Shown here in pieces: positions 653 to 26,278 of a stretch of DNA of 26,495 bases. Under the pieces are notes generated by a model, which was not told where the DNA came from, did no database searches, and worked only from the letters and a program-made list of their open reading frames with translations. Position numbers and translations under genes: made by a program. The first letter of the stretch is position 1, and each line of letters opens with the position of its first letter. The DNA comes from a virus, in IMG/VR virus record IMGVR_UViG_3300025818_000152, positions 1 through 26,495 of that record; one strand, given 5' to 3'.

Positions 653-916
653 ATGCCGATTTGGCTGGTTCCTATCATTAGCTTTTTAGGGAAGCGTGGG
701 ATTCACTTCATAGTCTACGCCGTTTTCGCTTTGATAGGTGTAGGGTTATGGCAGAAGTTTTTTCCGAGTAATTCAAGTAATATCGAAAAGATAGAGAAAC
801 AAGTCAACGTCTACGGGGCAGACAGCCAGCGTGAGCCGTTGTTCGGGTGCGCGGCGTGGCGGTTACAGACAGAAGTGTACTGGAAAAGAAATGAAAGTCG
901 ACCACCAACAGAGTAA
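653..916 (+). CDS. small membrane protein, lysis-type candidate
   Basis: The start codon directly follows the preceding stop (TAAATG) and there is no strong SD, so reinitiation is likely. The 87 residues hold one hydrophobic segment (about 10-36, containing FIVYAVFALIGVGLW), then a soluble part with an EKIEKQVNVYG stretch and a small Cys/Trp-rich patch (FGCAAWRLQ). The 3' end overlaps the start of the next gene at 891. It is the third consecutive small membrane protein, so a role in lysis or in membrane passage of DNA can be suggested but not shown. Confidence 0.55.
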   Translation: MPIWLVPIISFLGKRGIHFIVYAVFALIGVGLWQKFFPSNSSNIEKIEKQVNVYGADSQREPLFGCAAWRLQTEVYWKRNESRPPTE

Positions 917-1877
917 CTTTACCGCGGGCGAGCTTGCTCCGACGTTGTTTGGAAGAACGGATATAGCGCAGTATGTAAATGCCTGTGCTATTGTTGAGAA
1001 TTTCTTAGTAAGGCCGCATAGTTCTTTGATAAGTTGTCCCGGGACAGAGTTTATTAATGATGCTAAGTACACAAGTGGGGCATCGACGGCTAATACGTTG
1101 GCGTTGTATGTGCCGTTCTCAACTGATTTTTCAGATGAGTCTCCATATAATCACATTCCATCTTCTTCTGTTGTGACTCTTAGCACAGCGACATTTGCGA
1201 CATCACCGGCAAGCGGGCATTTCCCGAACACTTCTAGCTCAATTCTTATTTATTCATATCATTCCATATTTGAATTAGACGATAACAATTTCGAGATAGG
1301 TGTCCGATTTCGTATCAGCAATCAATTAGTACATGGGGATAGTAGAACAATAATAAGCAAGGGTCGTCCTCATGTTGGGGCATCTGATTTCGGTGGATTC
1401 AGTATATTTATTGGAACGGAGAATTTTGGCGAAAATGATAGGCTTCAGGCTGTTGTAGGTGGCTTTGGGAACTACTATGGGTGTGATTACACAATGCCTG
1501 CCAGTACAAAGTTTCAAGCAAATACTTGGTATAAAGTAATGACAAATAGAATTAGCAACACAATGTATTTGTATTTAGACGATGTTCTTGTTGCTACAGC
1601 CGATCTGACGGGTGTTATAGTTCCTGAAGACAATGTTCCTGTTGTGATTGGCGGGCAAATAAATTCGTCAGAGTCTGGTTATGAGGCGAGAATAAATGGG
1701 TATGTTGATGAAGCATATATTATTAATGGGATTTCTCCAGCGGAATATCCAACAACAAGGGTTTACGGCCGTTCCCGCCTGATTCCCTTCGTGTTCAGCC
1801 GGGATGACGCTTACGCGATCGAGTGCGGGGAGAGTTACTTTAGGTTCTACACCAACGGAGGGGTAGTCAACGCGTGA
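891..1877 (+). CDS. nozzle N-terminal module, copy 1, with LamG insertion
   Basis: This 328-residue protein has three parts. Residues 1-60 (SNFTAGELAPTLFGRTDIAQY to GTEFINDAKY) match the N-terminal signature of podovirus nozzle/tail proteins, which typically read as SF..GE.SP.L.GR.D...Y, then NF.V...G, then PGT.F. Residues of about 61-291 are a beta-rich LamG/concanavalin-like domain (NTWYKVMTNRISNTMYLYLDD, then IGG and GYVDEAYI). The last 37 residues (SRLIPFVFSRDDAYAIE to YFRFYTNGGVVNA) resume the nozzle module. In most relatives this module continues into the nozzle body; here the gene stops. ATG 891 aligns with the start of copy 2, whereas the longer frame from 831 adds an unrelated 20 residues. 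The LamG part would project from the tail and could bind glycans (inference). Confidence 0.75.
   Translation: MKVDHQQSNFTAGELAPTLFGRTDIAQYVNACAIVENFLVRPHSSLISCPGTEFINDAKYTSGASTANTLALYVPFSTDFSDESPYNHIPSSSVVTLSTATFATSPASGHFPNTSSSILIYSYHSIFELDDNNFEIGVRFRISNQLVHGDSRTIISKGRPHVGASDFGGFSIFIGTENFGENDRLQAVVGGFGNYYGCDYTMPASTKFQANTWYKVMTNRISNTMYLYLDDVLVATADLTGVIVPEDNVPVVIGGQINSSESGYEARINGYVDEAYIINGISPAEYPTTRVYGRSRLIPFVFSRDDAYAIECGESYFRFYTNGGVVNA
1041..1069 (+). repeat. 29-bp direct repeat, left copy (LamG insertion boundary, copy 1)
   Basis: The 29 bases beginning gggacagagtttattaatga are identical to 2841-2869 in module copy 3. They encode GTEFINDAKY, the last nozzle residues before the LamG insertion. 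Such identity between otherwise diverged copies marks a recent duplication or recombination joint. Confidence 0.85.
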
Positions 1878-2182
1878 AAACCGATTTCCAACAGACCAGC
1901 TTTGTGGGAGGGGAGATCGCCCCGGCTTTATTTGGTAGGTCGGACATCGCCCAATATGAATACGCGTGTGAGAAATTGGAGAATGTGTTAGTTACCCCTT
2001 TCGGGAGTTTGATTAGCTGTCCGGGGACTGAGTACATCGGAGGGACTAAGCACTCGGCACAGAGTACGAATAACACGTCTAGGCTTTTACCTTTTGTCTT
2101 TTCTAGGGACGATTCGTTTGCGATAGAGATGGGGCATAACTATTTCAGATTCTTTACTAACGGGGGAGCCGTAACGCAATGA
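1874..2182 (+). CDS. nozzle N-terminal module, copy 2, without LamG
   Basis: The GTG start overlaps the stop of copy 1 (GTGA), with a G-rich SD (ggagggg) about a dozen bases upstream. The 102 residues align without gaps to the first 60 residues of copies 1 and 3 (MKTDFQQTSFVGGEIAPALF, GRSDIAQY, SLISCPGTEY). After a roughly 10-residue linker they run straight into SRLLPFVFSRDDSFAIE and YFRFFTNGGAV. This is the module as it appears in ordinary nozzle proteins, so the LamG domains of the neighbours are insertions. The 3' 43 bases are overlapped on the other strand by the HNH gene. It probably assembles with the body protein encoded at 3695, but this is inferred. Confidence 0.75.
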   Translation: MKTDFQQTSFVGGEIAPALFGRSDIAQYEYACEKLENVLVTPFGSLISCPGTEYIGGTKHSAQSTNNTSRLLPFVFSRDDSFAIEMGHNYFRFFTNGGAVTQ

Positions 2183-2676
2183 AGGTCAAATCTACTATGG
2201 CATTTAGGACACAATCTTTGCCAATCTTCAATTTTTCTTCGGTATTTGTGATCTATATTAGACCAATGATATATTTTTGCTTTAGTCGTACCGCATTGCC
2301 AACAAACTCTAGGCTTTCCAGCTATATTCTCAACCCAAATGTGGGTAGCTCTATAGCCAGATTTTTCTCCTTTCCAAGTAGGGCTTTTCTCACCGAGGAA
2401 TATTCCAATATGGGAAATACTAAGTTTCTTTCTAGTTTCTCGACTTACAAATCTCCCGCGGTTAGCAATACCGTAACATTCTCTAGAGCAATATTTTCTT
2501 TTGTTTTCATAAGCAGAAAACGCCTTACAGCAATTATGACAAAAATATCTTTTTATTCTAATTTTCTTTCTAATCGATACAGCGCAGAGTATGGAGCAAA
2601 ATTTCCCATGTCCACGCTTCACATGGTATGGTCTAGGATTAAATTCTTTATTGCAAACAATGCAGTTTTTTATCAT
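2140..2676 (-). CDS. HNH homing endonuclease with NUMOD3-like motif
   Basis: This 178-residue protein is a site-specific DNA endonuclease of the phage HNH type. It has two Cys4 zinc-finger-like pairs (C5/C8/C27/C31 and C46/C49/C63/C67) and a NUMOD3-like DNA-binding motif near 78-91 (SRETRKKLSISHIG). Next comes the common linker EKSPTWKGEKSGYRA, and then the HNH core: CWQC at 125-128, N140-I-D-H143, and CPKCH at 156-160. The last 12 residues (CVTAPPLVKNLK) are simply the antisense reading of copy 2, which supplies the stop codon, as expected of an inserted gene. The region is visibly more AT-rich than its flanks. Its insertion lies precisely at the start of module copy 3. A free-standing element is likely, since there is no room for an intron core around it. 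Confidence 0.85.
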   Translation of the reverse strand: MIKNCIVCNKEFNPRPYHVKRGHGKFCSILCAVSIRKKIRIKRYFCHNCCKAFSAYENKRKYCSRECYGIANRGRFVSRETRKKLSISHIGIFLGEKSPTWKGEKSGYRATHIWVENIAGKPRVCWQCGTTKAKIYHWSNIDHKYRRKIEDWQRLCPKCHSRFDLHCVTAPPLVKNLK

Positions 2677-2682
2677 ATAAGG

Positions 2683-2711
2683 ATTATACCATTAAAACAG
2701 ATATAATTCAA
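2683..2711 (-). promoter_or_regulatory. sigma70-type promoter of the HNH gene, leaderless geometry
   Basis: On the minus strand TTGAAT (2711-2706), a 17-bp spacer and a perfect TATAAT (2688-2683) precede the HNH start codon by only six bases. The expected transcription start therefore falls at or next to the ATG at 2676, with no room for an SD. The -35 matches consensus at four of six positions. The promoter lies inside the coding start of module copy 3. Confidence 0.55.
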
Positions 2712-3686
2712 ACCACATTTACAGGGGGAGAGTTTTCTCCGAGGTTATTCGGCAGGACGGATATTGCTCAGTACACAACAGCCTGCGCGGTGGTGGAGAA
2801 TATGCTTGTAAGGCCTTATGGGACGATTATCTCTACACCGGGGACAGAGTTTATTAATGATGCTAAGTATGACACATCTGGATTATCTGATGATGATATC
2901 GACGAAGATGTGATTTTATATCTTGAGATGGAAGGAACAAATGGATCAACCACATTCACCGATTCATCTTCATATAATCATTCGATAAGTGCTACAGGGG
3001 GGAATGTTGCAATCAGTACGGCACAATACAAGTTTGGCGGTTCATCGGCTTTATATCAATATGTAGCGGTAGAGGATGAGCAGGAGAGAATATATGTAGC
3101 AGATAATGACGTATTTGATATTCATATTGCACAAGATCGCACTTATGAGTTGTGGATGAGATGGACAGATTTAGCCCCGGCGGGGAATGGGAATAATAAT
3201 TTTTATTACCAAGTTGGCCCTAATTCCGATCTGATTAGATGCGATGCCGATGAATTTGTTGTTGGTTCGGTGCGTTTTGGATTCAATATGACAGACTCAG
3301 GTTCCGGTAGTGGGGTGGCCCAATCTTCCGATCTAACCCCAAGCCTGAATGAATGGCACCATATTGCTTATGTAAAGAGTTCAAGCACATTGAATATATA
3401 TCTCGATGGTTCCAATATTGCTTCCGCGACTTTCTCAGCTGGTTTTGTTTTTGCTGCGCCAAACTCTGCGGTTGTTATAGGGCAAAGAACAGACGGTTAT
3501 ATGGACAGCTTTATTATTACAAACCGAGCAAAGTATACGTCTAATTTTACTCCACCCACGGGTGGAAGAAATTACGGCCGTTCTCGCCTGATCCCCTTCG
3601 TGTTCAGCCGTAACGACGCTTATGCTATCGAAGCCGGAGAAACATATTTCAGATTTTATACTAATGGTGGAGTAGTAAACGCTTAG
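2691..3686 (+). CDS. nozzle N-terminal module, copy 3, with LamG; probable AUU start
   Basis: The protein has the same layout as copy 1. Residues 1-60 (IKTDIIQTTFTGGEFSPRLF to GTEFINDAKY) align without gaps to copies 1 and 2. A different LamG domain fills about 61-294 (LNEWHHIAYVKSSSTLNIYLDG, then VVIGQRTDGYMDSFII), and the last 37 residues are almost identical to the end of copy 1. No ATG, GTG or TTG occurs between the stop at 2640-2642 and GTG 2790, which would delete the first half of the module. The codon matching Met1 of the other copies is ATT at 2691, eight bases after AGGA (2679-2682). The ATG that once began this gene probably remains at 2179, separated by the HNH insertion. An AUU start is therefore inferred; loss of function is the alternative. 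Confidence 0.65.
   Translation: MKTDIIQTTFTGGEFSPRLFGRTDIAQYTTACAVVENMLVRPYGTIISTPGTEFINDAKYDTSGLSDDDIDEDVILYLEMEGTNGSTTFTDSSSYNHSISATGGNVAISTAQYKFGGSSALYQYVAVEDEQERIYVADNDVFDIHIAQDRTYELWMRWTDLAPAGNGNNNFYYQVGPNSDLIRCDADEFVVGSVRFGFNMTDSGSGSGVAQSSDLTPSLNEWHHIAYVKSSSTLNIYLDGSNIASATFSAGFVFAAPNSAVVIGQRTDGYMDSFIITNRAKYTSNFTPPTGGRNYGRSRLIPFVFSRNDAYAIEAGETYFRFYTNGGVVNA
2841..2869 (+). repeat. 29-bp direct repeat, right copy (LamG insertion boundary, copy 3)
   Basis: Identical to 1041-1069. At the other boundary both copies also share near-identical DNA (ttacggccgtt, then cgcctgat and ccttcgtgttcagcc), at 1763 onward and 3572 onward. The LamG cassettes are thus flanked by recombinogenic sequence. Confidence 0.85.
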
Positions 3687-3694
3687 GAGATCAA

Positions 3695-5704
3695 ATGGCA
3701 GCTTATGAATTAACACACACTTACACAGCAAGTCAAATCTACGACATACAGTACGCGCAGATAAACGACGTTATTTATCTCGCCCACCCCGACCACCCAC
3801 CGAGGAAACTGACAAGAATCGCCTCGAATAACTGGACTTTAACGGATGTGCCTTTTATTGGAGGCCCGTTCTTTACCGATAACGGAATCCTCTCTGGTTC
3901 TTCCATCTTACTCTTAACTTCGGCTACGATCACCGCGAGTGCCACGGCTGGAACGGTTACTCTCTCAGCGAGTGCGAACATCTTTACAGCTTCTGGTTCG
4001 ACATTAGGTCACGTTAATACTTTTTGGAAAGTCGGGTCGACTGTAACGAGTGCCACGACCGGCTTAGATGAACAGGGGTATGTGAAGATCACAGCAGTCA
4101 CTAATCCGTCCACAGCGACGGCAACGGTAATGAAAACTCTTTCCACGGCTTCGGCTACGACTAACTGGGCGCAGGGGGCTTGGTCTTATGTGTTAGGGTT
4201 TCCTGCTCGGACAACCTTTTACCAGCAAAGACTTGTATTCGCTCGCACAGATTATCAACCACAGAACGTCTGGTTGTCTAAATCTTTCGAGTTTGAAAAC
4301 TTCGCTCTTGATGGGGGAGAGGACGACGACGCGATAGACATACAGCTTGCCTCTAACGAATCGAACGAAATCAAGTGGATCGTTCCTGGGACTAATTTAA
4401 TCGCCGGTACGTACGGAGGGGAGTTTGTTATCAAGTCTGGTGATGGTTCTCCTTTAACGCCAGCCAACACGAACGTCGGGAAGGAAACATCTTGGGGGTC
4501 TGAGGCGGTTGTGCCTAAGAAGATAGGAAACTTCTTTTATTACATTCAAAGATTCAGCCGTAAGGTACGGGAGCTTTTCTTTAACTTCGACCTAGACGCT
4601 TATAAATCGGTAGATAAGACTATCCTTTCCCCACACATAGCAGGGGATGGGTTTATAGATATGGCTTACCAACAAAACCCTGACTCTATTCTTTGGTGTG
4701 TTACGTCACAAGGGACGATCTCGACAATGACTAGAGAGGTCGATCAAGAGGTGCAGGGGTGGGCTAGACAAACAACTATCGGAAACTATGAGTCTATCGT
4801 TTCAATTCCATCTCAGAGCGAGCCGCACGACGAGGTTTGGGTGGTTGTTAAGAGGACGTTAGGAAGTGGAGCCGAGAGAAGGTATATCGAAAGATTTAAA
4901 AGCCCTATCGTGCCGGATAGAAAAGATGACTGTTTCTACGTCCACTCAGGTTTGACTTACAACGCCTACGATGAAACAGCTTCTCCCACGTCATACACGA
5001 TCAGTCTATCAGCGACAGCCGGGACGACTGTTGTGGTGACTTCTTCCGGGGCGTACTTCGCTATCGGGGATATAGGGCAGAGAATAAGAGCGATAGACGC
5101 AGACGGTGACACAGTAGGGGAGTTAGAGGTCACAGCTTTCACTTCTTCGACGGTGGTTGTTGGAGAGGTAAAGACGAATTTCGACGCTACTTCATACACA
5201 GGTGGAGAGTGGGGGCTTTCTGTTTCGACTGTGTCAGGGTTAGACCATCTTGAGGGGTTGGAGGTGGTTGTCTTAGCTGACGGAGGGTTAGATAAACCGA
5301 ATAAGACAGTTTCCGGAGGGGCGATCAGTTTAGAGTACAACTATTTCAAAGTCCACGCGGGGCTTCCGTACACTCAAAAGATTCAGACTTTACCCATCGA
5401 AGCCGGTAGTCAAAGAGGGACTTCTCAATGCAAAATCCAAAAGATTAACGAATTAGGATTTAAAGTGAACAACTCTCACACCGGGTTTTATGTAGGAGGA
5501 ACAGAGTCCACTTTAGACAGGGTGCAGTTTAGAAATTCAGCGACAGAAATGGGGACACCTGAGGCCCTATACACAGGGGTAATTCCAAAGATACCTTTTG
5601 GTGATGGGTACAGGTACGGCGCGCAGGTGTGGATTCAGAACCCCGACCCACTTCCCGTCGAGCTTTTATCAGTTGTATACACGGTCGATACCAATGACAA
5701 GTAG
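3695..5704 (+). CDS. nozzle (tail tubular B-like) body protein
   Basis: This 669-residue protein forms the main part of the short-tail nozzle through which DNA leaves the virion. It opens with YELTHTYTASQIYDIQYAQ, then NDVIYLAHPDHPPRKLTR and NWTLTDVPFIGGPF. In other podoviruses these motifs lie directly downstream of the SRLIPF.FS...YFRFY.NGG module on the same polypeptide. Later parts (FPARTTFYQQRLVFARTDYQ and WLSKSFEFENF, then IKWIVPGTNLIAGTYGGEF) are also typical. The body is beta-rich with Thr/Ser/Ala-rich inserts near residues 70-140 and 430-500. The SD GGAG (3686-3689) precedes ATG 3695, so the split is a true gene boundary. It is expected to pair with the three upstream modules. Confidence 0.75.
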   Translation: MAAYELTHTYTASQIYDIQYAQINDVIYLAHPDHPPRKLTRIASNNWTLTDVPFIGGPFFTDNGILSGSSILLLTSATITASATAGTVTLSASANIFTASGSTLGHVNTFWKVGSTVTSATTGLDEQGYVKITAVTNPSTATATVMKTLSTASATTNWAQGAWSYVLGFPARTTFYQQRLVFARTDYQPQNVWLSKSFEFENFALDGGEDDDAIDIQLASNESNEIKWIVPGTNLIAGTYGGEFVIKSGDGSPLTPANTNVGKETSWGSEAVVPKKIGNFFYYIQRFSRKVRELFFNFDLDAYKSVDKTILSPHIAGDGFIDMAYQQNPDSILWCVTSQGTISTMTREVDQEVQGWARQTTIGNYESIVSIPSQSEPHDEVWVVVKRTLGSGAERRYIERFKSPIVPDRKDDCFYVHSGLTYNAYDETASPTSYTISLSATAGTTVVVTSSGAYFAIGDIGQRIRAIDADGDTVGELEVTAFTSSTVVVGEVKTNFDATSYTGGEWGLSVSTVSGLDHLEGLEVVVLADGGLDKPNKTVSGGAISLEYNYFKVHAGLPYTQKIQTLPIEAGSQRGTSQCKIQKINELGFKVNNSHTGFYVGGTESTLDRVQFRNSATEMGTPEALYTGVIPKIPFGDGYRYGAQVWIQNPDPLPVELLSVVYTVDTNDK

Positions 5705-7733: not shown

Positions 7734-10700
7734 TATTTGATTTTGAATCAGCCGTGAAGGTTAGAAAACGCGATGATGGGTTCTATGAAAAGGACACTTT
7801 CGACGTATCTACGGCTATGCCTATTCCGGGGCCTGTTGGTACTGTTTTGGAAGCGATGAAAAAACCGCCGGAACAGTTGGAGGCTGAGCGAGAGAAAAAG
7901 ACAGAGGAAGCCGTCACGGATTGGGTCTTAACCCACGAAAAGGAATTGGCTGTTGCTAAGGCAGGGTTAATGACTGCCGCGACGGGTGGGGCTTATCCTG
8001 TTATTCAGGGGGCAACGGGGGCGATCACCGGCGACGATGATTTGATGATGGACAGAGTGACGAGAGGAATTTTATATCCTGAGAAAACAAAGGGTCTTTA
8101 TACCAAGTTACCTGGTGGAGAGAACGTCACGGGTGGGTGGGCTATTCTTGCAGGGGTGTCGGAGGATATTGTCAAGTATGGCGTGGCAGGGATTGTCCAG
8201 GGTGGGTTAAAGACTAAGTTGTTAGCTAAGAGCTTGGCGAAGGACGTTGATCGGGCGGCGACAATGCAAGCGGAGGAAATGCTTGGTTCGATGACTAAGG
8301 GGGAAGGTGTTTTGGCAGGGGATAAGGCAGGGTTCGCGCGCAAGCTAGAAGGTTTAAAGGAAAAGTTTGTCAATGCCTATATGGAAAAATTGGGAGCGAT
8401 TGACGTTGATACGCGGATGACCGGGTGGCAACAGTTGGCGGCGAGAAAAACAATAACAAGAATGTTATTAGATGAGATAGACGCTTCTGGTTTGTCTATT
8501 GGTTTATCTATCAAGCCGGTTGTTGGGAATACGGTTACTGTAATGTCTAAAGGCAAACCTATCCTGGGGAAAGTTACGGAGATATTGGGGAACAGAGTAA
8601 CGGTCGAGGCAGAGGGGCGGCAGATAATAGCTATGATGTCGCAGTTTAGATTACCTCCATTGGCTGAAAAAGAAGATACGCTATTCCCTAGCGGAGCTAC
8701 GGAGGAAGTAAAGCTCTTGGAATTTAAAGCCGCTATTCAAGGGGAAGGGTTTGTTGGATATTCACCAAAACAAAGCAGAGAGCTCTTGAAATTTGTTAAT
8801 AGTTTACCTGAGAATGTATCTAAAAAGGAAGCATTAAAGAAATTTGAGGAAACAGAAAAAACGCTTAGTCAAGAACTACCGGCTTCTAAAATAAAGAAAA
8901 TTGTCAGGGAAGAAACTGGTCAGATTAAAGACACCGGTGGGGTTGTTTCTGAGAGGGTAGCTTTTATTCAATCCCTGCGTGATCGTGTTAAGGCAGCTAA
9001 ACAGGCTGAGAACTTCACGAAGGAAGAAATTTTTGACACTCAGAAAGATTTAACCGAATTGATTGATAAGTCAGAATTAGAACCGGCAGATAAAGCTAAG
9101 TTTCTAAAGACTATTAAAAACATACAAACCCCGGAGGATTTACAAAAAGCATTAGCTCCAAAGATTAATAAGAAGGGAGAGGTGGTCGGTGTCGGGTTAG
9201 AAGAGAAAATAAACATTCTACTTGATAAGATGGAGAGGAGGAATATCGCCTCAGACATTAATAATGTTAAAACAGAAGGGCTGGCCGTCGAATACAAGAA
9301 AGCTATAGAGAATATCCAAGAAAGATTCGATTTAAAAAATAGGTCAGGAAAGACTTTGGCTAAACGAGAGCAAATGAGGGACTTCATTAACCGCCTAAAG
9401 TCAGAAGGCAAGGACATCCCTATACCAGAAAAGACTATTGCGATGTTAGATCGCCCCTCTTTACAAGAAATAGATATTGAGGAATTAAAAAAGGTTCGCG
9501 CTGAGGTAGAACATCTTGCGCGGCTTGGTAAGACAAAACAAAGAGCAAGAGAGATTACTTACGAAGCAAAGAAAGAGAAGATTAAGCAAAAACTTATTCA
9601 AGATGTCCACGCTATTAACTCTGTATCTAAACCAAACGTTCCTCTTGGGGAATCTACAAATAAGATGGTTGATAGGTACATCAATCTAAGAAATTACTTC
9701 ACTAAAACCAGAGTGGGGTTGACTCCTATGGAGGGGTTGGCGGATGTAACTGGTATGCAGAGCATGAAGAAAGAGTTAGATAAGAATTTTGGAGAATACT
9801 TATCTTTTAATGATGATAATTTCCGCAAGTGGTATGAACTCACAAAAGATTTTGACGAGGGGAATTTTGATAGGATTGGGGCATACGCTATCTCTCAACA
9901 AGAGGGAGGGATTGAGCGTCTTTTAAACTCCGGAATAACAGACGCGACTAAGATTGAATTAAGTGCGGAAGAAGAAAAAGCGTATAATTTTGCGCGAGAA
10001 ACTTTTGATAAGTATTTCGATCAGGTTGCTCAATATTCAAAAGAGGTTTATAACGAGTCTGTTGGGAAAGTCGAAAACTATGTTTCATTCATGTCTGATT
10101 TTGAGAATATGAATGATTTAGAAATGTACGACCGCTTCGGACAACGCCCGCAAGAAGCTATTAATAAGAGAACTAAGACAGTTGAGCAGGGGTTCACAAA
10201 GAGCCGCGCCGCAACGAGCAATGTTCAAATAGAAACAAATATAGACAAGATATTTAGACGGCATCTTGACGATGTTGCATACCTGTTAACAATGGGCCGA
10301 GATATTAAGATGTATTATGAAGTTGTTAATTCTCCTGAAATGAGAGAATCCCTCGGTGATGTAGGGGCTATGGCTTGGTTACAATGGTTAGACTTGATGG
10401 CAAGAAAGGGAGGAGTTGACTCAGCTAAAAGGATAGCGGCCCTGGATATTCTTAGAAGAAATGTAGGGGCAGGGGTTTTAGCTTATCGTTTATCTTCGGC
10501 TTTGGTGCAGATTTCTTCTTTTGGTGACACAATGGCAACGATGGGCGAGAAATACGCCACCAAAGGGGCAACGAATATTGCCACTTCTCAAGAATGGCGT
10601 AATTTCATTATGGATCATTTCCCTGAAATCAAAAAAGCCGTTGGGGACGATGTTGCTTTTCGAGAGTTTGGAGATAGTTATTTTGATAAAGCTGTACGAC

Positions 10701-18479: not shown

Positions 18480-19604
18480 ATGAAAACTATTATTCTAGGA
18501 GCAGGTTTTACAGGGTTGGCGGCAGGTTACGGAACAGACATCCCTATCTACGAGGCCACAGAACACGCCGGGGGGATTTGCCGGTCTTATAAGAAATACG
18601 GGTTCGACTTTTCAACAGGCGGGGGGCATTGGATATTTGAGAATGAAAAGACTCAGAAAGCGATGGAGTTTATCCGGGGGTTGGTCGAGCTTAATTCTTA
18701 CGATCGAAAGGCGGGAATTTACTATAACAAAATCTTCCCTTACCCTATCCAGACCTTCACGCAGAAAGAGTCGGTTTCCACTCCTGGGTACTTTAAAGAC
18801 TGGCTCTCAAAGAAGTTTAGTCAAGCTGAATGTAATATGTTTTTCTATCCTTTCAACGAGAGATACACAGCAGGCTTGTACGACAGTATCGTTCAGTTTG
18901 ACTCTTATAAGACTCCCCCGGCCGGTGGGGTAGGTTTTGTTTCAAGATTCCACGATCCAGTGAATGGTTTAACCGAGTTGGTTAATAAGATGGCTGAGAA
19001 GTGCATGATTAATTATAAGAAGCGAGCGATTAAGGTCGCCCTAGATGAAAAGATGGTAGTCTTTGCCGATGGGGAAGTGGTTAAGTACGACAAGCTGATC
19101 TCCACTATCCCACTCGATCAGTTGCTCAAGCTATGCGGGCAGAATAAGTATGAATTACCCTATTCCTCGGTTTTGGTTATCAACATCGGCGCGGAAAGAG
19201 GGGTTAATTACCCGGATGAACATTGGTTATACGTTCCTTTTTCTCAATCAGGTTTTTACCGATTAGGGTTTTACACGAACGTCAATAAGAAGAAAGCTCC
19301 AGAAGGGATGGTTTCTGTGTCCGCAGAGATAGCAATTAGGAATTTAGAGTATGCCGATCTCCCCATTGACTCTATGTGTGCAGAGGTTGTTTCCGAGTTA
19401 CAGTCTTGGAGATTTATTGATGAGGTTAGAGTGGTAGACCCGACCTGGGTTCGTTGCGCGTACACTTGGAACAGAACGCCGGAGGAGAGAGAAGTTTATC
19501 TGCAGTCTTTGGCTACGCAGGGAGTTATCTCGACAGGGAGATATGGTAAATGGAAATTTCAGGGAATGTCCGAATCAATAATGGATGGGTTCAATGCTTG
19601 TTAG
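18480..19604 (+). CDS. FAD-dependent oxidoreductase, UDP-galactopyranose mutase/protoporphyrinogen oxidase type
   Basis: This 374-residue protein begins with the FAD-binding GXGXXG motif (IILGAGFTGLAAGY), then the ribose-binding acid and second glycine motif (YEATEHAGGICRS). FDFSTGGGHWIF and FPYPIQTF follow, as in UDP-galactopyranose-mutase-related proteins of polysaccharide clusters. The end has the FAD pyrophosphate-like STGRYGKWKFQGMSESIMDG. The start codon follows the upstream TAA directly. Membership in a sugar cluster favours action on a sugar nucleotide or glycan. A true mutase cannot be claimed, since known UGM residues beyond the FAD site were not verified. Confidence 0.75.
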   Translation: MKTIILGAGFTGLAAGYGTDIPIYEATEHAGGICRSYKKYGFDFSTGGGHWIFENEKTQKAMEFIRGLVELNSYDRKAGIYYNKIFPYPIQTFTQKESVSTPGYFKDWLSKKFSQAECNMFFYPFNERYTAGLYDSIVQFDSYKTPPAGGVGFVSRFHDPVNGLTELVNKMAEKCMINYKKRAIKVALDEKMVVFADGEVVKYDKLISTIPLDQLLKLCGQNKYELPYSSVLVINIGAERGVNYPDEHWLYVPFSQSGFYRLGFYTNVNKKKAPEGMVSVSAEIAIRNLEYADLPIDSMCAEVVSELQSWRFIDEVRVVDPTWVRCAYTWNRTPEEREVYLQSLATQGVISTGRYGKWKFQGMSESIMDGFNAC

Positions 19605-20292
19605 CGTAATCGTACCTAATCACGGAAGAATCATAACGACCTTAGTGGAGTCAATTAGAAACTCCACATATAAGGACGTGGAGCTTTTGGTAATCGACCG
19701 CGGGTATGAAAGAAGCGAACAGAGGAACATGGGGATCGCCGAAGCAAAAGGGGAATTGTTTTTAATCCTAGACTCCGACCAGAGCGTTCATCCCAAGTTA
19801 ATCGAGGAATGTGTTTCTCTTTGTCAGATGGGTTATGGTTCGGTTTATATACCTGAGATTATTGTCGCCAAGAGTTTCTTCGGGAAAGTTCGGGCGTATG
19901 AGAGGGAGTTCTATACAGGTACAGCGGTGGACGTGCCGAGGTTCGTTAAGAAAAGGTTATGCCCCAAGTTTGATACTAATCTTCGAGGCCCCGAGGATTC
20001 GGATTGGGGTAATAGGATTTTAGGGCCAAGAGTAACTTCAAGTTATCCTTTATATCACCACGACGACATAGGTTTCATTGAATACTTCCGTAAAAAGGCC
20101 TACTACTCTAAGAGTATGAAAAGGTATGTGCAGAGAAACCCGACAGACAAGATTTTAGATTGGAAGTGGCGGTGTTTTGGAGTGTTCTTGGAAAAGGGAA
20201 AGTGGAGAAAAATTTTACAACATCCTATCCTATTCGCGTGTGTGATGGGGATTATCTTTTTAAGGGGGATCATTTATATATGCAACCGCTAG
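19594..20292 (+). CDS. GT2 family glycosyltransferase with C-terminal anchor, 1
   Basis: This 232-residue protein starts MLVSVIVPNHGRIITTLVES, a standard GT-A opening, and has the nucleotide-sugar DXD motif (ILDSDQSVHP, D60/D62). The usual DDGSTD loop is replaced by VIDRGYERSEQRNMGI. A C-terminal hydrophobic stretch (HPILFACVMGIIFLRGIIYI) would hold it at the membrane. ATG 19585 gives three more residues; neither start has a strong SD and both overlap the upstream gene. It is likely an inverting transferase adding a sugar to a lipid-linked glycan. The donor and acceptor are unknown. Confidence 0.75.
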   Translation: MLVSVIVPNHGRIITTLVESIRNSTYKDVELLVIDRGYERSEQRNMGIAEAKGELFLILDSDQSVHPKLIEECVSLCQMGYGSVYIPEIIVAKSFFGKVRAYEREFYTGTAVDVPRFVKKRLCPKFDTNLRGPEDSDWGNRILGPRVTSSYPLYHHDDIGFIEYFRKKAYYSKSMKRYVQRNPTDKILDWKWRCFGVFLEKGKWRKILQHPILFACVMGIIFLRGIIYICNR

Positions 20293-21206
20293 TTTCCGTG
20301 TGTATTCCGTGTTTCAATCAGTCTCAATTTGCGATAGACGCAATCACCACATCATTGTTACAGACGTATCAGAACGTAGAAGTAATTTTCTTAGACGATG
20401 CTTCCACAGACGAAACGCCGAAGTATAAGAACCTAACTTGGTATGGGGAGAAAGAGCCAAAGTTTAAATATTACCGAAGCGAAACTCCATCAGGAACAGG
20501 GGGGTCATTCAACAAGGCGATCAGCTATGCGAAGGGGGAGATTATTATTCTCCTCTGCGCGGACGACTACTTTTTAGACCGAAACGTAATCCAAGACATT
20601 GTTGATTTATTTAATCACGTTCCTTCTTTGGGGCATATATCAAGATACTACCATCAGTTTATCGACGGGGATAAGCGTCCGGTAAGAGCGTGGAGAGGGG
20701 ATGATGTTATGGAGCTTGCTAATAACCCTTCGGGTCTAGCGTTTCGCCGGGAAGCAATCTATGGGAAAGAATTAACCAATCGTATGTTTGTGGAAGTTTC
20801 TAGTTTGGTAAGCGAGGTTTGCTTGGAATGGGGTTACGATATTCTAAGATACGACACCGTGGCTGTTCGTATACACCAGAGCATTTCCCGCAGTAAAGAT
20901 TACTACCTAAAGAGATGGACTTCTTCGCCGGTAGAGGAATGGTCTAAGGTTGGAGGGTATGCCTTACTCAAAGACTACACATCCATTTTACAAATAAAAA
21001 ACTACTTCACGATGGAAGCGGTTTTAAAAGAGGTGTGGAATTTTATCCGCTTACGTCCTTTAAACTTAATCAATCCGGCTTTTATATTTTTTGCTTTACT
21101 CGCCATTTTAACACCGCGAAGGATATTAAGGAATATCCCCGATATTTACCGCAAGACGTGGGGCCGATGGACGACTAGAGAAGTGAAAAGAAAATGCCAA
21201 AACTAA
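20280..21206 (+). CDS. GT2 family glycosyltransferase with C-terminal anchor, 2
   Basis: This 308-residue protein starts at ATG 20280, inside the end of the previous gene. A longer frame from 20160 adds 40 residues of unrelated overlap. Motifs are VSVCIPCFNQSQFAIDA, FLDDASTDE (D39/D40), LLCADDYFLD (D95/D96), NPSGLAFRREA and, near the end, the hydrophobic INPAFIFFALLAIL. It resembles the next gene throughout (PSG.AFR, F.VE, VA.R.H), so the two are paralogues from a tandem duplication. It probably transfers a sugar to a membrane-bound acceptor. Confidence 0.8.
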   Translation: MQPLVSVCIPCFNQSQFAIDAITTSLLQTYQNVEVIFLDDASTDETPKYKNLTWYGEKEPKFKYYRSETPSGTGGSFNKAISYAKGEIIILLCADDYFLDRNVIQDIVDLFNHVPSLGHISRYYHQFIDGDKRPVRAWRGDDVMELANNPSGLAFRREAIYGKELTNRMFVEVSSLVSEVCLEWGYDILRYDTVAVRIHQSISRSKDYYLKRWTSSPVEEWSKVGGYALLKDYTSILQIKNYFTMEAVLKEVWNFIRLRPLNLINPAFIFFALLAILTPRRILRNIPDIYRKTWGRWTTREVKRKCQN

Positions 21207-22075
21207 CCATCTGCATACCAGCCTATAACTCCGAGCGTACTCTCGCCGAAAGCATAGAGTCCGCGCTAGAACAAAATTATCCAGACAAAGAGGTTCTGGT
21301 CATAGACGACGGATCAACAGACGCTACTGCACAGGTGGCAAGGTTGTACGATGTCCGACTGATACTCAACGAGAAGAATGAGGGAATAGGTCTTACCCTC
21401 GCCAAGTTGATGAAAGAAGCTCAAGGCAAGTATGTAATCTATCTCTGCGCTGACGATGTTTTCACAGACAAACGCTTCGCCGGGGACGTGGTGCATCAGT
21501 TTGATACAGGTGACTCTGATATAGGTGTACTCGGTAGATACTTTTACTTCTTCCGCGACGGCTATCCCGGAGCTATCGGAGTGAGTCGCGATGAGAATAT
21601 CTTAACTCAGTCCTGCTGTCCTTCGGGGATGGCTTTCCGCAAGATGGAAGTGGAAGGTACAAACAAAATCTTTGTAGAAATGCCTTACATCGTATCTCAA
21701 TACCTAAAAATGTGGCGGTGGTCAATGTTCAAGTGGGACGTGGTGGCGGCAAGGTTCCACCCAGGAGGAAACACCGGAACAAAGAAGTCTTATTACACAG
21801 AGTCACCTTTTATGAATTGGCTTGAGCTTTTAGGGCAACCTTTAAGGTTCAACGAAGGTTTCATCCAACTAAAAAACCGCGCTCCTCATTTACTTTGGCA
21901 AGAGATAAGGCTGACAGTTAAGCACGATCCAGACGTATTAAAAATTATAAACTTTTGGTTGTATGCTCTAGTGGCTTTGTTAGTACCTAGTTTTATATTA
22001 AGACATTTAACATCATTTTACAGGCACAGAATAAACCGCAACTTGGTTAAAATCATCATGAGAGAGGAAAAATGA
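21194..22075 (+). CDS. GT2 family glycosyltransferase with C-terminal anchor, 3
   Basis: This 293-residue protein has ITICIPAYNSERTL-like GT-A opening residues (LTICIPAYNSERTLAESIES), VIDDGSTDATA (D38/D39), YLCADDVFTD (D87/D88) and CPSGMAFRKME. The C-terminal segment WLYALVALLVPSFIL forms a membrane anchor and is followed by a basic tail. ATG 21194 overlaps the previous gene by 13 bases. It is a paralogue of the upstream gene, with a better conserved nucleotide-binding loop. Confidence 0.8.
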   Translation: MPKLTICIPAYNSERTLAESIESALEQNYPDKEVLVIDDGSTDATAQVARLYDVRLILNEKNEGIGLTLAKLMKEAQGKYVIYLCADDVFTDKRFAGDVVHQFDTGDSDIGVLGRYFYFFRDGYPGAIGVSRDENILTQSCCPSGMAFRKMEVEGTNKIFVEMPYIVSQYLKMWRWSMFKWDVVAARFHPGGNTGTKKSYYTESPFMNWLELLGQPLRFNEGFIQLKNRAPHLLWQEIRLTVKHDPDVLKIINFWLYALVALLVPSFILRHLTSFYRHRINRNLVKIIMREEK

Positions 22076-22076
22076 A

Positions 22077-23090
22077 ATGTCAAGTAAGAGAATACTCCTG
22101 ACTGGTATTGGGGGCTTCATAGGTTCACATTGTTTGTCGCATCTATTAGTCAACACAGATTGGGAGATTGTCGGGATAGATAGCTGGCGGCATAAAGGAA
22201 TTTCGGAGAGATTAACTCACAATGAACATTTTTTAAAACATATCAAGAGAGTCAATATTTACACACACGACTTGATTGCTCCTATATCTAGCGTCCTAAA
22301 GAGCAAGATTGGGAAGGTGGATTATATAATAAATTTCGCTTCAGAATCCCACGTTGACAGGTCAATCACAAACCCAGTTCCTTTTGTTAAGAATAACGTA
22401 GATATTGCTTTGAATATGCTTGAGTATGCGCGGGAGATAAACCCTGAAAAGTTTGTTCAAATCTCCACCGACGAGGTTTATGGTGCTACTGATGGAAAAT
22501 ATACTCATCCGGAATGGAGTGCTATTCTTCCTTCTAACCCGTATTCAGCTAGTAAGGCTTGTCAAGAAGCTATCGCTATAAGTTATTGGAGGACTTACGG
22601 GGTTCCGGTAATGATTACTAACATTATGAACACCGCCGGGGAGTATCAATCAAGCGAGAAGTATGTACCGATGGTTATTAAGAAGATTTTAAATGGGGAA
22701 AAAGTGCAAGTCCACGCCGATCCGAAAAGCGGAGAGCCAGGATCAAGATTTTGGCTTCACGCCCGGAATACGTCAGACGCGATATTGTTTATCTTAAAAA
22801 ATGTAGATGTAAAGAAGTTTCCAGAGGTAGACAGGCCGGAGAGATTTAACATTGTAGGGGAGAAACAAATTTCTAATTTAGAAATCGCAAAGATGATCGC
22901 CGATGTTATGGGAAAAGATTTAGATTACGAGCTTGTTGACGCACACTCAAGCCGTCCGGGGCATGATCCTCACTATGGGCTGTGTGGTAAAAAGTTAGAG
23001 TCTTATGGTTATAAATTCCCCGTTAACCTTCATTCGTCGCTTGAGAAGATGGTCAAGTGGACGTTAAACAATAAGGAGTGGCTAGAATGA
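22077..23090 (+). CDS. RmlB-like NDP-sugar 4,6-dehydratase (extended SDR)
   Basis: This 337-residue protein has the NAD-binding TGIGGFIGSH at 9-18, FASESHVDRSI near 87-97, the dehydratase signature STDEVYG with T131-D132-E133, and the Y156-XXX-K160 pair (NPYSASKA). The RPGHDPHYGL segment near the C-terminus is also typical of dTDP-glucose 4,6-dehydratases. The reaction is removal of water from an NDP-hexose to give a 4-keto-6-deoxy sugar, the first step to many deoxy and amino sugars. RmlC and RmlD partners are not in the window. It supplies a donor for the neighbouring transferases (inference). The exact nucleotide specificity cannot be read by eye. Confidence 0.8.
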   Translation: MSSKRILLTGIGGFIGSHCLSHLLVNTDWEIVGIDSWRHKGISERLTHNEHFLKHIKRVNIYTHDLIAPISSVLKSKIGKVDYIINFASESHVDRSITNPVPFVKNNVDIALNMLEYAREINPEKFVQISTDEVYGATDGKYTHPEWSAILPSNPYSASKACQEAIAISYWRTYGVPVMITNIMNTAGEYQSSEKYVPMVIKKILNGEKVQVHADPKSGEPGSRFWLHARNTSDAILFILKNVDVKKFPEVDRPERFNIVGEKQISNLEIAKMIADVMGKDLDYELVDAHSSRPGHDPHYGLCGKKLESYGYKFPVNLHSSLEKMVKWTLNNKEWLE

Positions 23091-23233
23091 AAAGTCTAAT
23101 GAAAGAAGCTAAGAGAATAGCTAAGCATTACGCTAAGCATTTCCGATGGGCTAGGGAAACACGAGAGGAAATAGACTATAAGGACGTTTTGTATAACGGC
23201 GCGCGCCGGGGAAGAAGAAAGAAGTTAGTATGA
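23087..23233 (+). CDS. 48-residue basic protein
   Basis: ATG 23087 overlaps the upstream TGA and has AAGGAG upstream; its own TGA overlaps the next ATG. The product is strongly basic, with a helix (MKSLMKEAKRIAKHYAKHF) and an Arg/Lys tail (NGARRGRRKKLV). It might bind nucleic acid or phosphate. It looks out of place inside a sugar cluster, as does the next small gene. Confidence 0.5.
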   Translation: MKSLMKEAKRIAKHYAKHFRWARETREEIDYKDVLYNGARRGRRKKLV

Positions 23234-23484
23234 GATACGAGTTATCAGTCACCATCCCTGAAAAGCAGTGGAGGAAGATATTCGAAAAAAACTTCCCTGA
23301 TAGGGCAAAGATAATCGCTGAATATTTTTTTATTCTTACCGACACTTACGGGGTATCAGAGAGGGCGGCGAAAGAAAAGATGGCAGAGATATTCAAACTA
23401 ATGGAAGAAGGACACGATGTCATTCTAAGGTGTCCTAAAGGGTGGAAGTGGCCGGAGGAAGTTCCGAGGGAGGTGGTTCAATAG
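23230..23484 (+). CDS. unknown 84-residue protein
   Basis: ATG 23230 overlaps the preceding stop. The product has a beta start (RYELSVTIPEKQW), a helical middle (AAKEKMAEIFKLMEEGHDVI) and ends with PKGWKWPEEVPREV. No family is recognised. It ends directly before the HNH gene. Confidence 0.5.
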   Translation: MRYELSVTIPEKQWRKIFEKNFPDRAKIIAEYFFILTDTYGVSERAAKEKMAEIFKLMEEGHDVILRCPKGWKWPEEVPREVVQ

Positions 23485-23949
23485 ATGCCATATAAAGATA
23501 AAGAAGTACAAAGAGAATATTTTAGATTAAGGAACAAACGTAGATATAATAATAAATGTTTAGATTGTGGGGATGTTTGCCATGAAACATCTTCTAGATG
23601 TAAGCCGTGTTCAAAGTTAAAGAAATATAGAAATCCAAGTGTTAGGCAAAAGGGTTGGGCGAAGAAGATTAATGGTGTTTATCTTCAACGCATCGCTACT
23701 CGAATTAGGGATTTGGTTGAGTATTCCGAATGGCGTTTAAAAGTATTTCGCAGAGACAGGTTTGTTTGTCAGATGTGTTTGGAGTCTGGAAAAGTATTAA
23801 ATGCACATCATGTTGTAAGAATGAAAAGGATTTTAGTTGATGAAGGGATTGATACTATTGCTAAAGCGATTTCTTGTTCTTTGCTTTGGGATATTAATAA
23901 TGGAGTTACTTTGTGTCATTCGTGCCATAAGAAAGTTCATAAATTATGA
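23485..23949 (+). CDS. HNH endonuclease, probable homing gene
   Basis: This 154-residue protein has an N-terminal zinc finger (C25/C28 and C39/C42 in KCLDCGD and RCKPCSK) and a C-terminal HNH core: FVCQMC (C95/C98), AHHVVRM (H108/H109), NNGVTLCHSCHKKVH (N138, C144, C147, H148, H152). The DNA is clearly more AT-rich than the genes before it, and the role is unrelated to the sugar cluster it sits in, both signs of a mobile endonuclease gene. It overlaps the radical SAM gene by four bases and so has been fitted into the operon. The SD is weak. Confidence 0.8.
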   Translation: MPYKDKEVQREYFRLRNKRRYNNKCLDCGDVCHETSSRCKPCSKLKKYRNPSVRQKGWAKKINGVYLQRIATRIRDLVEYSEWRLKVFRRDRFVCQMCLESGKVLNAHHVVRMKRILVDEGIDTIAKAISCSLLWDINNGVTLCHSCHKKVHKL

Positions 23950-24998
23950 GAATATTATTTAAAGACAGCCCTTATCATTCTCAGCGTCAATATGAGAAGC
24001 CGGTTTGGATTTATCCGGCTCATCTTGCGATGTTTGCGACGCTCCTTAGAGATAAAGGGAATGAAGTTGTTTGGTTTGGTGAAGATGATGGTAAGTTTGA
24101 TAGGATTATTAAATCTGATCGAGAGATAGATGTTGATTTTGATAAACTGCCGATACCTGACAGGAAATTTACTAATTCAATGAATCCTAAATATCTTTCT
24201 TATGGAAATTATAAATATTTTCCAGGTAGTCATCTTTTATCCTCTAACCTTTGCTGGTGGGCCGGGGCAAAGGGGTGTACCTTTTGTGTGGATTCTTTGA
24301 GGATCATTGAAAATGAGAAACGAGGGCTTAGGACAGTAGATCATGTTTTAACTGAGATTGAAGATTGCGTTAAGTTAGGGCATAAGGAGTTGTTTGATGA
24401 TGCTGGAACAATACCGATAAATGAGTGGTTGAATGAATTATGCAGAAAAATGATAGATACCGGACTAAATAAAAAGATTGTATTGGGGTGTAATCTTAAA
24501 CCGATTAAACAGGATTTCAAATTAATGAGAGAAGCTGGATTTAGGTTCATATTGGTAGGCATTGAATCTGCCAATCAAAATACTATTAACAAGATTCAGA
24601 AAGGGCAACGAGCAGATAAAGTTATTGAGAACATAAAGGCGATGTCAGATGCAGGACTGGATCCTCACGGAACCTTCATGTGTGGCTACCCTTGGGAGAC
24701 GCCGGAAGAAGAAAAGAACACGATAGAGCTTTGCCACTACCTTCTTAAAAAAGGGTATCTCAAAACAGCGCAGGCAAGCGTATATTCCCCACCCAGGACA
24801 CAGCCAGATCCAAATTCCCCAGGCCATAAGTACGTTCCTAGGTTTTTCGACGCATACAGAAGTCCTGAGTTTTGGTTTCATAAAGTAAAAGACATTAAAC
24901 GATGGGAAGATTTTACCTACCTTCTTCGCGGGGGTAGGCTAGTACTGGAGGAGAAAGTGAGAAAGTTTTGTTTGAAAAAGTCTGTATCATCCTGTTAG
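23946..24998 (+). CDS. radical SAM enzyme with CX7CX2C cluster motif
   Basis: This 350-residue protein has an N-terminal region like B12-binding radical SAM proteins (LAMFATLLRDKGNEVVWFGE, then LPIPDRKF), but no DXHXXG cobalamin motif. The Fe-S motif is C103-X7-C111-X2-C114 (LCWWAGAKGCTFC), the spacing seen in 'CWWG....CTFC' enzymes that modify peptides, rather than the usual CX3CX2C. Other core pieces are ELFDDAGT and LVGIESANQNTINKIQKGQ with GTFMCGYPWET. A C-terminal extension follows. The substrate is unknown; a sugar, lipid or peptide are all possible. The 5' two thirds appears more AT-rich than the rest. Confidence 0.75.
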   Translation: MRILFKDSPYHSQRQYEKPVWIYPAHLAMFATLLRDKGNEVVWFGEDDGKFDRIIKSDREIDVDFDKLPIPDRKFTNSMNPKYLSYGNYKYFPGSHLLSSNLCWWAGAKGCTFCVDSLRIIENEKRGLRTVDHVLTEIEDCVKLGHKELFDDAGTIPINEWLNELCRKMIDTGLNKKIVLGCNLKPIKQDFKLMREAGFRFILVGIESANQNTINKIQKGQRADKVIENIKAMSDAGLDPHGTFMCGYPWETPEEEKNTIELCHYLLKKGYLKTAQASVYSPPRTQPDPNSPGHKYVPRFFDAYRSPEFWFHKVKDIKRWEDFTYLLRGGRLVLEEKVRKFCLKKSVSSC

Positions 24999-26278
24999 TA
25001 AACTTATGTTTCTACTTAAAATGTCTCGGATTTAAATACGTATCAGACGACATTCCTTCCGCAAACCGCAAAGAAACTCACCCTAAGTGGAAGTATTGGC
25101 TTCTAGTCCTAGAAGGCCATTTAAAAAGCAATCCTGTAATTGATCACGCCATCACCATAGTTTTACACTCCTTAGTTTGTGCTTTTATTTATATAGGATT
25201 CGGGGCTAACGACGTGTCTTTTCTAGCTGCCTTACTTTTCTCTTTCAATCCTATCAACAATCAAGGTTCGGTTTGGATTTCAGGGAGAGGGTACGTTTTG
25301 TCCACATTAGGAATGGTGGGGGCGATGAGTATGCCTTTGCTGGCTCCGGCTTGGATCTTGCTAGCCTGTTACTCAAACGCCGGGTTCCTGGCTCCGCTTG
25401 TATTCCTAGGATCAGACTATTCCTGGTTCCTTCTGTTTATGCCTCTCATTTGGGGGTTTTATTGGAAAAGATTTAAAAATAATGTACAGAACAAAATCAG
25501 CCAGGAGATGTATACCGAGGACAGGAAGATTCACATATCAAAACTTATCCTCTTTATTAAGACCGCTTCGTTCTACTTCATCCACTCGATCATCCCGATC
25601 AAGACGACCTTTTATCACTCGTATATGCAGAGTATGGCCGGCGCGGGAAAAGAAAAAGCCTATTCACTTAGAGACAGATTCTTTTGGTTAGGTCTTGTGA
25701 TCTTCGGGTGGATGATCTGGTATTGGACTACACAACCTTGGACTATGGCTTCATTCGGACTTTTGTGGTGGCTTATCACTCTGGCTCCGTTTTGTAATCT
25801 GTTCAGGCTACAACAGGAGATTGCTGAAAGATACTGCTACCTTCCAAATGCTGGGTTAATGGTAGCCTTAGCGACCTTTCTGTTGGCTTCGCCAATATGG
25901 TCGGCTGTATTTATCACAATGTACGCAACTAAGATGTGGTTCTGGATGGACGCTTTTCAGGACGATTACTACACTGTCGAGGCATCTTGTATAGCCTCTC
26001 CAAACTCTTGGTTTGTCTGGCACGTCCGCGCGATGAAAAGATGGGGGAATCAGTCTTATCAAGAAGCTCTTATCCTGTGGACTATGGCCCGGTTAATCAG
26101 CCCTAAAGAGTTTAAGATACTATTTAACATCGCCTCAGCTTTAAAACTAGGCAAACACGACAAGGAAGCCGAACAGTTTATCAAACAAGCCGAGGAGAAC
26201 ATCCCGGCCGGACAAGAAAAACAAGCCAACGAGTTAATCGAAGGTTGGAAGAAAGGAAACCTAGCTGTCCTCTTATGA
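24968..26278 (+). CDS. GT-C-like membrane glycosyltransferase with TPR-like tail
   Basis: This 436-residue protein is polytopic, with about eight or nine hydrophobic segments up to residue 320. It has D27-D28 in YVSDDIPSA near the end of the first helix, the usual site of the GT-C acidic motif. FSFNPINNQGSVWISGRGYV (93-110) and IAERYCYLPNAG (285-296) follow; both recall the TMTC/DUF1736 family of protein O-mannosyltransferases and their bacterial relatives. Residues of about 355-430 form TPR-like helices (YQEALILWTMARLISPKEFK, LGKHDKEAEQFIKQAEE). The start is TTG 24968, since the frame closes at 24959-24961 and no ATG follows soon. It probably moves a sugar from a lipid-phosphate carrier to a periplasmic acceptor. 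Confidence 0.65.
   Translation: MFEKVCIILLVNLCFYLKCLGFKYVSDDIPSANRKETHPKWKYWLLVLEGHLKSNPVIDHAITIVLHSLVCAFIYIGFGANDVSFLAALLFSFNPINNQGSVWISGRGYVLSTLGMVGAMSMPLLAPAWILLACYSNAGFLAPLVFLGSDYSWFLLFMPLIWGFYWKRFKNNVQNKISQEMYTEDRKIHISKLILFIKTASFYFIHSIIPIKTTFYHSYMQSMAGAGKEKAYSLRDRFFWLGLVIFGWMIWYWTTQPWTMASFGLLWWLITLAPFCNLFRLQQEIAERYCYLPNAGLMVALATFLLASPIWSAVFITMYATKMWFWMDAFQDDYYTVEASCIASPNSWFVWHVRAMKRWGNQSYQEALILWTMARLISPKEFKILFNIASALKLGKHDKEAEQFIKQAEENIPAGQEKQANELIEGWKKGNLAVLL

Follow-up and report, generated by a model that had tools for sequence, protein, structure and literature searches.

A tail nozzle split from its N-terminal module, which is encoded by three tandem genes, in an uncultured short-tailed phage

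Gene content of the nozzle locus

The window analyzed here spans an entire IMG/VR record (26,495 bases) from an uncultured short-tailed phage. Three paralogous genes for an N-terminal nozzle module (copies 1 to 3) lie within positions 891-3686 and are followed by a separate gene for the nozzle body (Table 1). The shared starts of the three modules, of about 60 residues, are 58-68% identical to each other, and the shared ends, of about 37 residues, are 62-92% identical. Profiles built from the module sequences themselves and their relatives match these segments at ~1e-36 to 1e-37 (start) and 1e-24 to 1e-25 (end); since the independent PHROG 376 profile agrees with these scores, the likeness of the modules is far beyond chance. 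In copies 1 and 3, one loop contains a LamG (concanavalin A-like) domain of ~230 residues, with PF13385 scores of 33.7 and 48.1 bits against a gathering cut-off of 27.6, and copy 2 is compact. The original prediction of three tandem genes with the same start and end, ahead of a separate body gene, is borne out by the coordinates, identities and profile matches; its description was right in layout and left out both the LamG domains and the HNH gene between copies 2 and 3.

Table 1. Features of the nozzle locus, in window coordinates.
Feature	Position	Strand	Basis
N-module copy 1 with LamG insert, 328 aa	891..1877	+	PHROG 376 positions 2-64 plus C-half; Laminin_G_3 5e-8, above cut-off
LamG-containing insert of copy 1, between module residue 60 and C-half	1071..1763	+	Gap between N60 and C37 matches; Pfam PF13385
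N-module copy 2, compact, 102 aa	1874..2182	+	PHROG 376 positions 2-98, E=2e-29
Probable original start of copy 3, ATGAAGGTC	2179..2187	+	MK start and 4-base overlap as in other modules, window and L007
HNH-type endonuclease ORF (178 aa), probable homing gene separating copies 2 and 3	2140..2676	-	PHROG 8446 HNH endonuclease, E=0.0037
N-module copy 3 with LamG insert, 331 aa, probable ATT start	2691..3686	+	PHROG 376 and LamG matches
LamG-containing insert of copy 3	2871..3572	+	Laminin_G_3 1.7e-12
Split junction: copy 3 stop and body ribosome-binding site, TAGGAGATCAA	3684..3694	+	Near-identical in L007, TAGGAGAGAAAC
Nozzle body without N-module, 669 aa	3695..5704	+	PHROG 376 positions 104-711, E=9e-144; PDB 8ck1 Tail Nozzle, E=2e-83

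Homology of the two parts and their relatives

Together, the modules and the body match the profile of the podovirus nozzle family PHROG 376 (tail protein, 712 positions) over its whole length. Copy 2 and the body divide it between them at positions 98 and 104, and copies 1 and 3 match the module region in two stretches with the LamG domain between them. The nozzles of this family are normally single chains; in the window, modules and body are separate ORFs, and the starts of copy 3 (2691) and of the body (3695) fall in different frames. Therefore, the window nozzle is a split variant rather than an ordinary member of the family. In a PDB search, copy 2 corresponded to residues 12-103 and the body to residues 288-824 of the Carin 1 'Tail Nozzle' (8ck1), two stretches that sit on one chain in both 8ck1 and 9efk; a single-chain relative, L008, was aligned along 8ck1 residues 13 to 821. 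Compared with L008 and a further relative, L009, the window body begins exactly at 'PYE', and the preceding linker 'VVS[LP]GTT' is absent. The locus thus encodes a split nozzle with its N-module in separate genes, and the predicted homology holds on both sides: aligned with the nozzle family, the body product lacks its N-terminus, and the modules match that N-terminal part and not elsewhere.

The position of the cut was located on an AlphaFold model of L008; a model of copy 3 alone was unusable (pLDDT 35.5). The L008 model (pLDDT 86.3) has the T7 gp12-type nozzle fold; its best PDB match was 8ck1 (TM 0.89), followed by the LME-1, P-SCSP1u and T7 nozzles, with E=1e-21 for T7 gp12. Strands were placed at residues 52-57, 68-73, 79-85, 88-93 and 107-109. 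The LamG insertion point corresponds to a low-confidence loop at 58-66, with pLDDT<50 at 61-63, and the split point, at about 101-106, falls after strand 88-93 and before strand 107-109. In T7, the N-terminal 45 residues form three platform strands, the first strand of the propeller comes next, and the platform binds the adaptor, contacting two adaptor subunits (PMC6702177). A body deprived of this part should therefore be incomplete. By the same comparison, the first half of the module would correspond to the platform and the second half to the first propeller strands.

Such an arrangement is rare among relatives. Scans of viral contig collections yielded 36 body relatives and 80 module relatives. 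All 104 other distinct records hold exactly one module, which in 99 of them shares one ORF with the start of the body; in three of the remaining five no body start was seen, and the other two (L040 and L071) look like frameshifts. A phage collection contributed 145 records with one module place each. Repeated scans of the viral contigs, including one with the split body start as query, returned L006 and L007 as the only further members of the split clade, and no relative was found in the genome contig collection. The nozzle is annotated as two genes in two database phages, Xanthomonas phage 10KY502B and Pseudomonas phage UFJF_PfDIW6. The latter (L128) was not counted as another split nozzle, because the pair of 'tail tubular B' genes there reflects a local duplication with a change of frame at about 1800-2000, possibly a sequence error. 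Thus, the expectation that podovirus module and body form one polypeptide holds for nearly all relatives and fails for the Xanthomonas phage, whose nozzle is split at another place. A split nozzle is by itself not new; the duplicated, differently decorated N-module is new within the collections searched.

The only other virus with this arrangement is represented by L007, a 39,724-base contig, and by L006, which differs from it by one base over 13 kb. Its body is 80% identical to that of the window and follows two modules in ORFs of their own, one compact and one with LamG (PF13385, 55.2 bits). The junction letters are nearly alike (CTTAGGAGATCAAATGGCA in the window, CTTAGGAGAGAAACATGGCA in L007), and in each phage a GGAG site and a body ATG have been retained there. 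As the same split recurs with a near-identical junction, it was inherited and is not an assembly error. With the profile positions, the structural homologues and the rarity among relatives, this second phage upholds the prediction of a split nozzle with its N-module in three tandem genes. No other nozzle match was found in the window or in the 39.7 kb of L007; both records may be incomplete, so that an intact nozzle might lie beyond the recovered sequence. The LamG inserts of copies 1 and 3 and of L007 have common flanks, INDAKY before and YGR[SA]RLIPFVF after; the LamG-type module therefore most likely existed before the two phages diverged, and so, most likely, did the compact module. L007 also encodes a free-standing LamG protein upstream of the nozzle (4297-5004), ~30% identical to the insert of copy 3. 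The start of the window falls inside an ORF (1-318) in a similar place, a fragment with no Pfam match.

Translation signals and divergence of the modules

The 3' ends of the modules hold a GGAG-like site, and the stop codon overlaps the next start (GTGA, ATGA), with copy 3 as the exception; a duplicated module could thus be translated at once. For copy 2, the GTG start overlaps the stop of copy 1 (GTGA), and a Shine-Dalgarno-like site lies within the 3' end of copy 1 (duplex -10.0 kcal/mol). The old start of copy 3 persists at 2179, with an ATGA overlap with the copy 2 stop and a similar site of -8.6 kcal/mol. The HNH ORF, the 3' end of which is antisense to copy 2, lies where the gene should begin. 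It is 41-44% identical to HNH endonucleases of Gordonia phages over about 70 aa, and its family matches are all weak. The ORF is probably a homing gene inserted at the copy 3 start, and the displaced start suggests that this insertion cut off the original one. A group I or II intron at the boundary of copies 2 and 3 was considered and rejected, as Rfam gave no match and the HNH ORF accounts for almost the entire insert. In L007, an HNH-like ORF unlike that of the window lies 3' of the nozzle body (9031-9606); each of the two phages thus seems to have an endonuclease gene at its nozzle locus.

No in-frame ATG, GTG or TTG is available to copy 3 before position 2790, i.e., before residue 34, so it must use a non-standard start codon. 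Translation most likely begins at the ATT at 2691, which is preceded by AAGGA. The duplex energy there is modest (-6.0, against -5.6 at the 25% point of random positions), and copy 3, its start displaced by the probable HNH insertion, may be poorly translated.

In the module cores, synonymous sites are near saturated (pS 0.65-1.1) and pN is 0.05-0.30, both between copies and between phages, with pN of 0.18-0.30 for the N halves and 0.05-0.29 for the C halves. The body is also near saturation between the window and L007 (pS 0.82). Given the low pN at near-saturated pS, and LamG inserts that are 29-33% identical among themselves, the module proteins are constrained and the inserts change faster. 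A history of two clean orthologous lineages, plain and LamG, was rejected because the N and C halves of the modules give conflicting trees, a sign of recombination or of too little signal; common ancestry of the LamG type rests on the shared insert flanks and not on the trees.

Probable trans-assembly of the nozzle and comparison with known systems

Nozzles gate the DNA and hold the fibres, and they are normally built from six copies of one chain. The explanation favoured here for the window phage, to which a probability of about 0.6 is given as a whole, combines a split nozzle, modules binding in trans and six shared sites. The nozzle, of T7 gp12 type (PHROG 376), is interrupted at the linker after the first ~100 residues, and the N-terminal piece, by analogy with T7, would contribute to the platform that faces the adaptor and provide the first strands of the propeller. 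The separate small module protein would bind the body in trans and thereby complete the platform and propeller of each of the six nozzle subunits; this trans-assembly of the split nozzle is strongly indicated and very probable. The module gene was duplicated, with one version compact and others carrying a LamG lectin-type domain in a flexible loop.

Equivalence of the six sites would put plain and LamG modules in competition, leaving a nozzle with LamG at fewer than six positions near the tail fibres, or with modules of mixed kinds there. How many LamG domains a virion carries, and of which kind, would be decided by this competition; these domains would probably serve as auxiliary host-surface adhesins, and whether they bind glycans is an even bet. 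The balance tips slightly towards plain and LamG modules being mixed in one virion. A bolder proposal, that the hexamer draws on three interchangeable N-modules, that a clonal burst varies in LamG number and kind, and that modules diversify by duplication and recombination with the DNA-gating body untouched, is tentative and rather unlikely. Mixed or switchable surfaces, as first proposed, are plausible and have gained from the finding of two LamG copies and one plain copy. A genetic switch, however, was considered and rejected: the module ends share only the expected 63-78% direct repeats and no useful inverted ones, and no near-identical tracts or inverted repeats that would support a genetic switch were found. 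Elsewhere in the window, a sugar-related cluster (18480-26278) encodes an amine-oxidase-type flavoprotein, three family-2 glycosyltransferases, a GDP-mannose dehydratase/epimerase-type enzyme, a radical SAM protein and a large membrane protein, and its products may alter glycans on the host surface.

Genes duplicated in tandem frequently prove short-lived, and copy 3 no longer has a normal start codon, probably because of the HNH insertion. Virions might therefore incorporate a single module, such as copy 3 beside the body or compact copy 2, with the others as surplus duplicates heading for loss. However, all three frames are open, the cores are conserved with pN well below near-saturated pS, and the plain and LamG pair is present in both phages despite the divergence of their bodies, which leaves this alternative about one chance in four. 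A single chain might still be made by stop-codon readthrough or frameshifting from the last module into the body, as the LamG module and body of L007 are in frame with a single TAG between them; but the frame differs in the window, so that readthrough is not conserved, and the GGAG site and body ATG are kept at both junctions, making this quite improbable. Although metagenome contigs carry frameshift errors, as L040 and L071 appear to, an ordinary single-chain gene broken by sequencing or assembly error is refuted for practical purposes, because one mis-assembled gene cannot yield three diverged copies and L007/L006 have the same junction with its ribosome-binding site and start codon.

With two of the three modules carrying LamG, one and the same tail could take on different surfaces. 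A platform end made as a small, duplicated, domain-carrying subunit would separate the evolution of the outer surface of the tail from that of the channel. Mixed occupancy of a phage tail could be tested in this naturally occurring system, which also supplies a natural split site that already tolerates foreign domains.

The single-chain nozzles of Carin 1 (8ck1) and LME-1 (orf18, 9efk) belong to the same sequence family as the window nozzle, and T7 gp12 shares the fold only. The parts in the window cover the whole chain of these nozzles in the same order; whereas each of them is one polypeptide, the window has an N-module gene three times over and a body gene. Many single-chain relatives carry one LamG domain, or one LamG nested in another, between the module end and the body, which is the split point in the window; the N-terminal region of the nozzle family thus repeatedly accepts lectin-type domains. 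In L051 (5289-6596), L063 and L077, both the outer and the nested LamG lie inside the nozzle protein. These three, together with L066, L068, L081 and L100, resemble the window in having LamG in the N-terminal region. However, being one chain, such a nozzle would carry LamG on all six subunits, and its insert lies at the junction, unlike that of the split clade, which occupies the loop at residue 60-65. Xanthomonas phage 10KY502B (L129, 1489-4592) likewise has its nozzle in two adjacent genes, with a TAATG junction, but the split comes much later (between residues ~190 and 246 of L008), and there is one copy of each part.

A further parallel comes from the lactococcal 936 phages (TpeX) and SPP1, in which tails are partially decorated by frameshifted major tail proteins with carbohydrate-binding extensions, an adhesin in SPP1 (PMC6669499). 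There, a structural ring combines plain and adhesin-bearing versions of one subunit, with a role in host binding (PMC6669499). The 936 and SPP1 systems rely on a programmed frameshift in the tail tube, whereas in the window a split-off nozzle module was duplicated, the decorated forms are separate genes, and mixing would follow from competition; the two would at most work alike.
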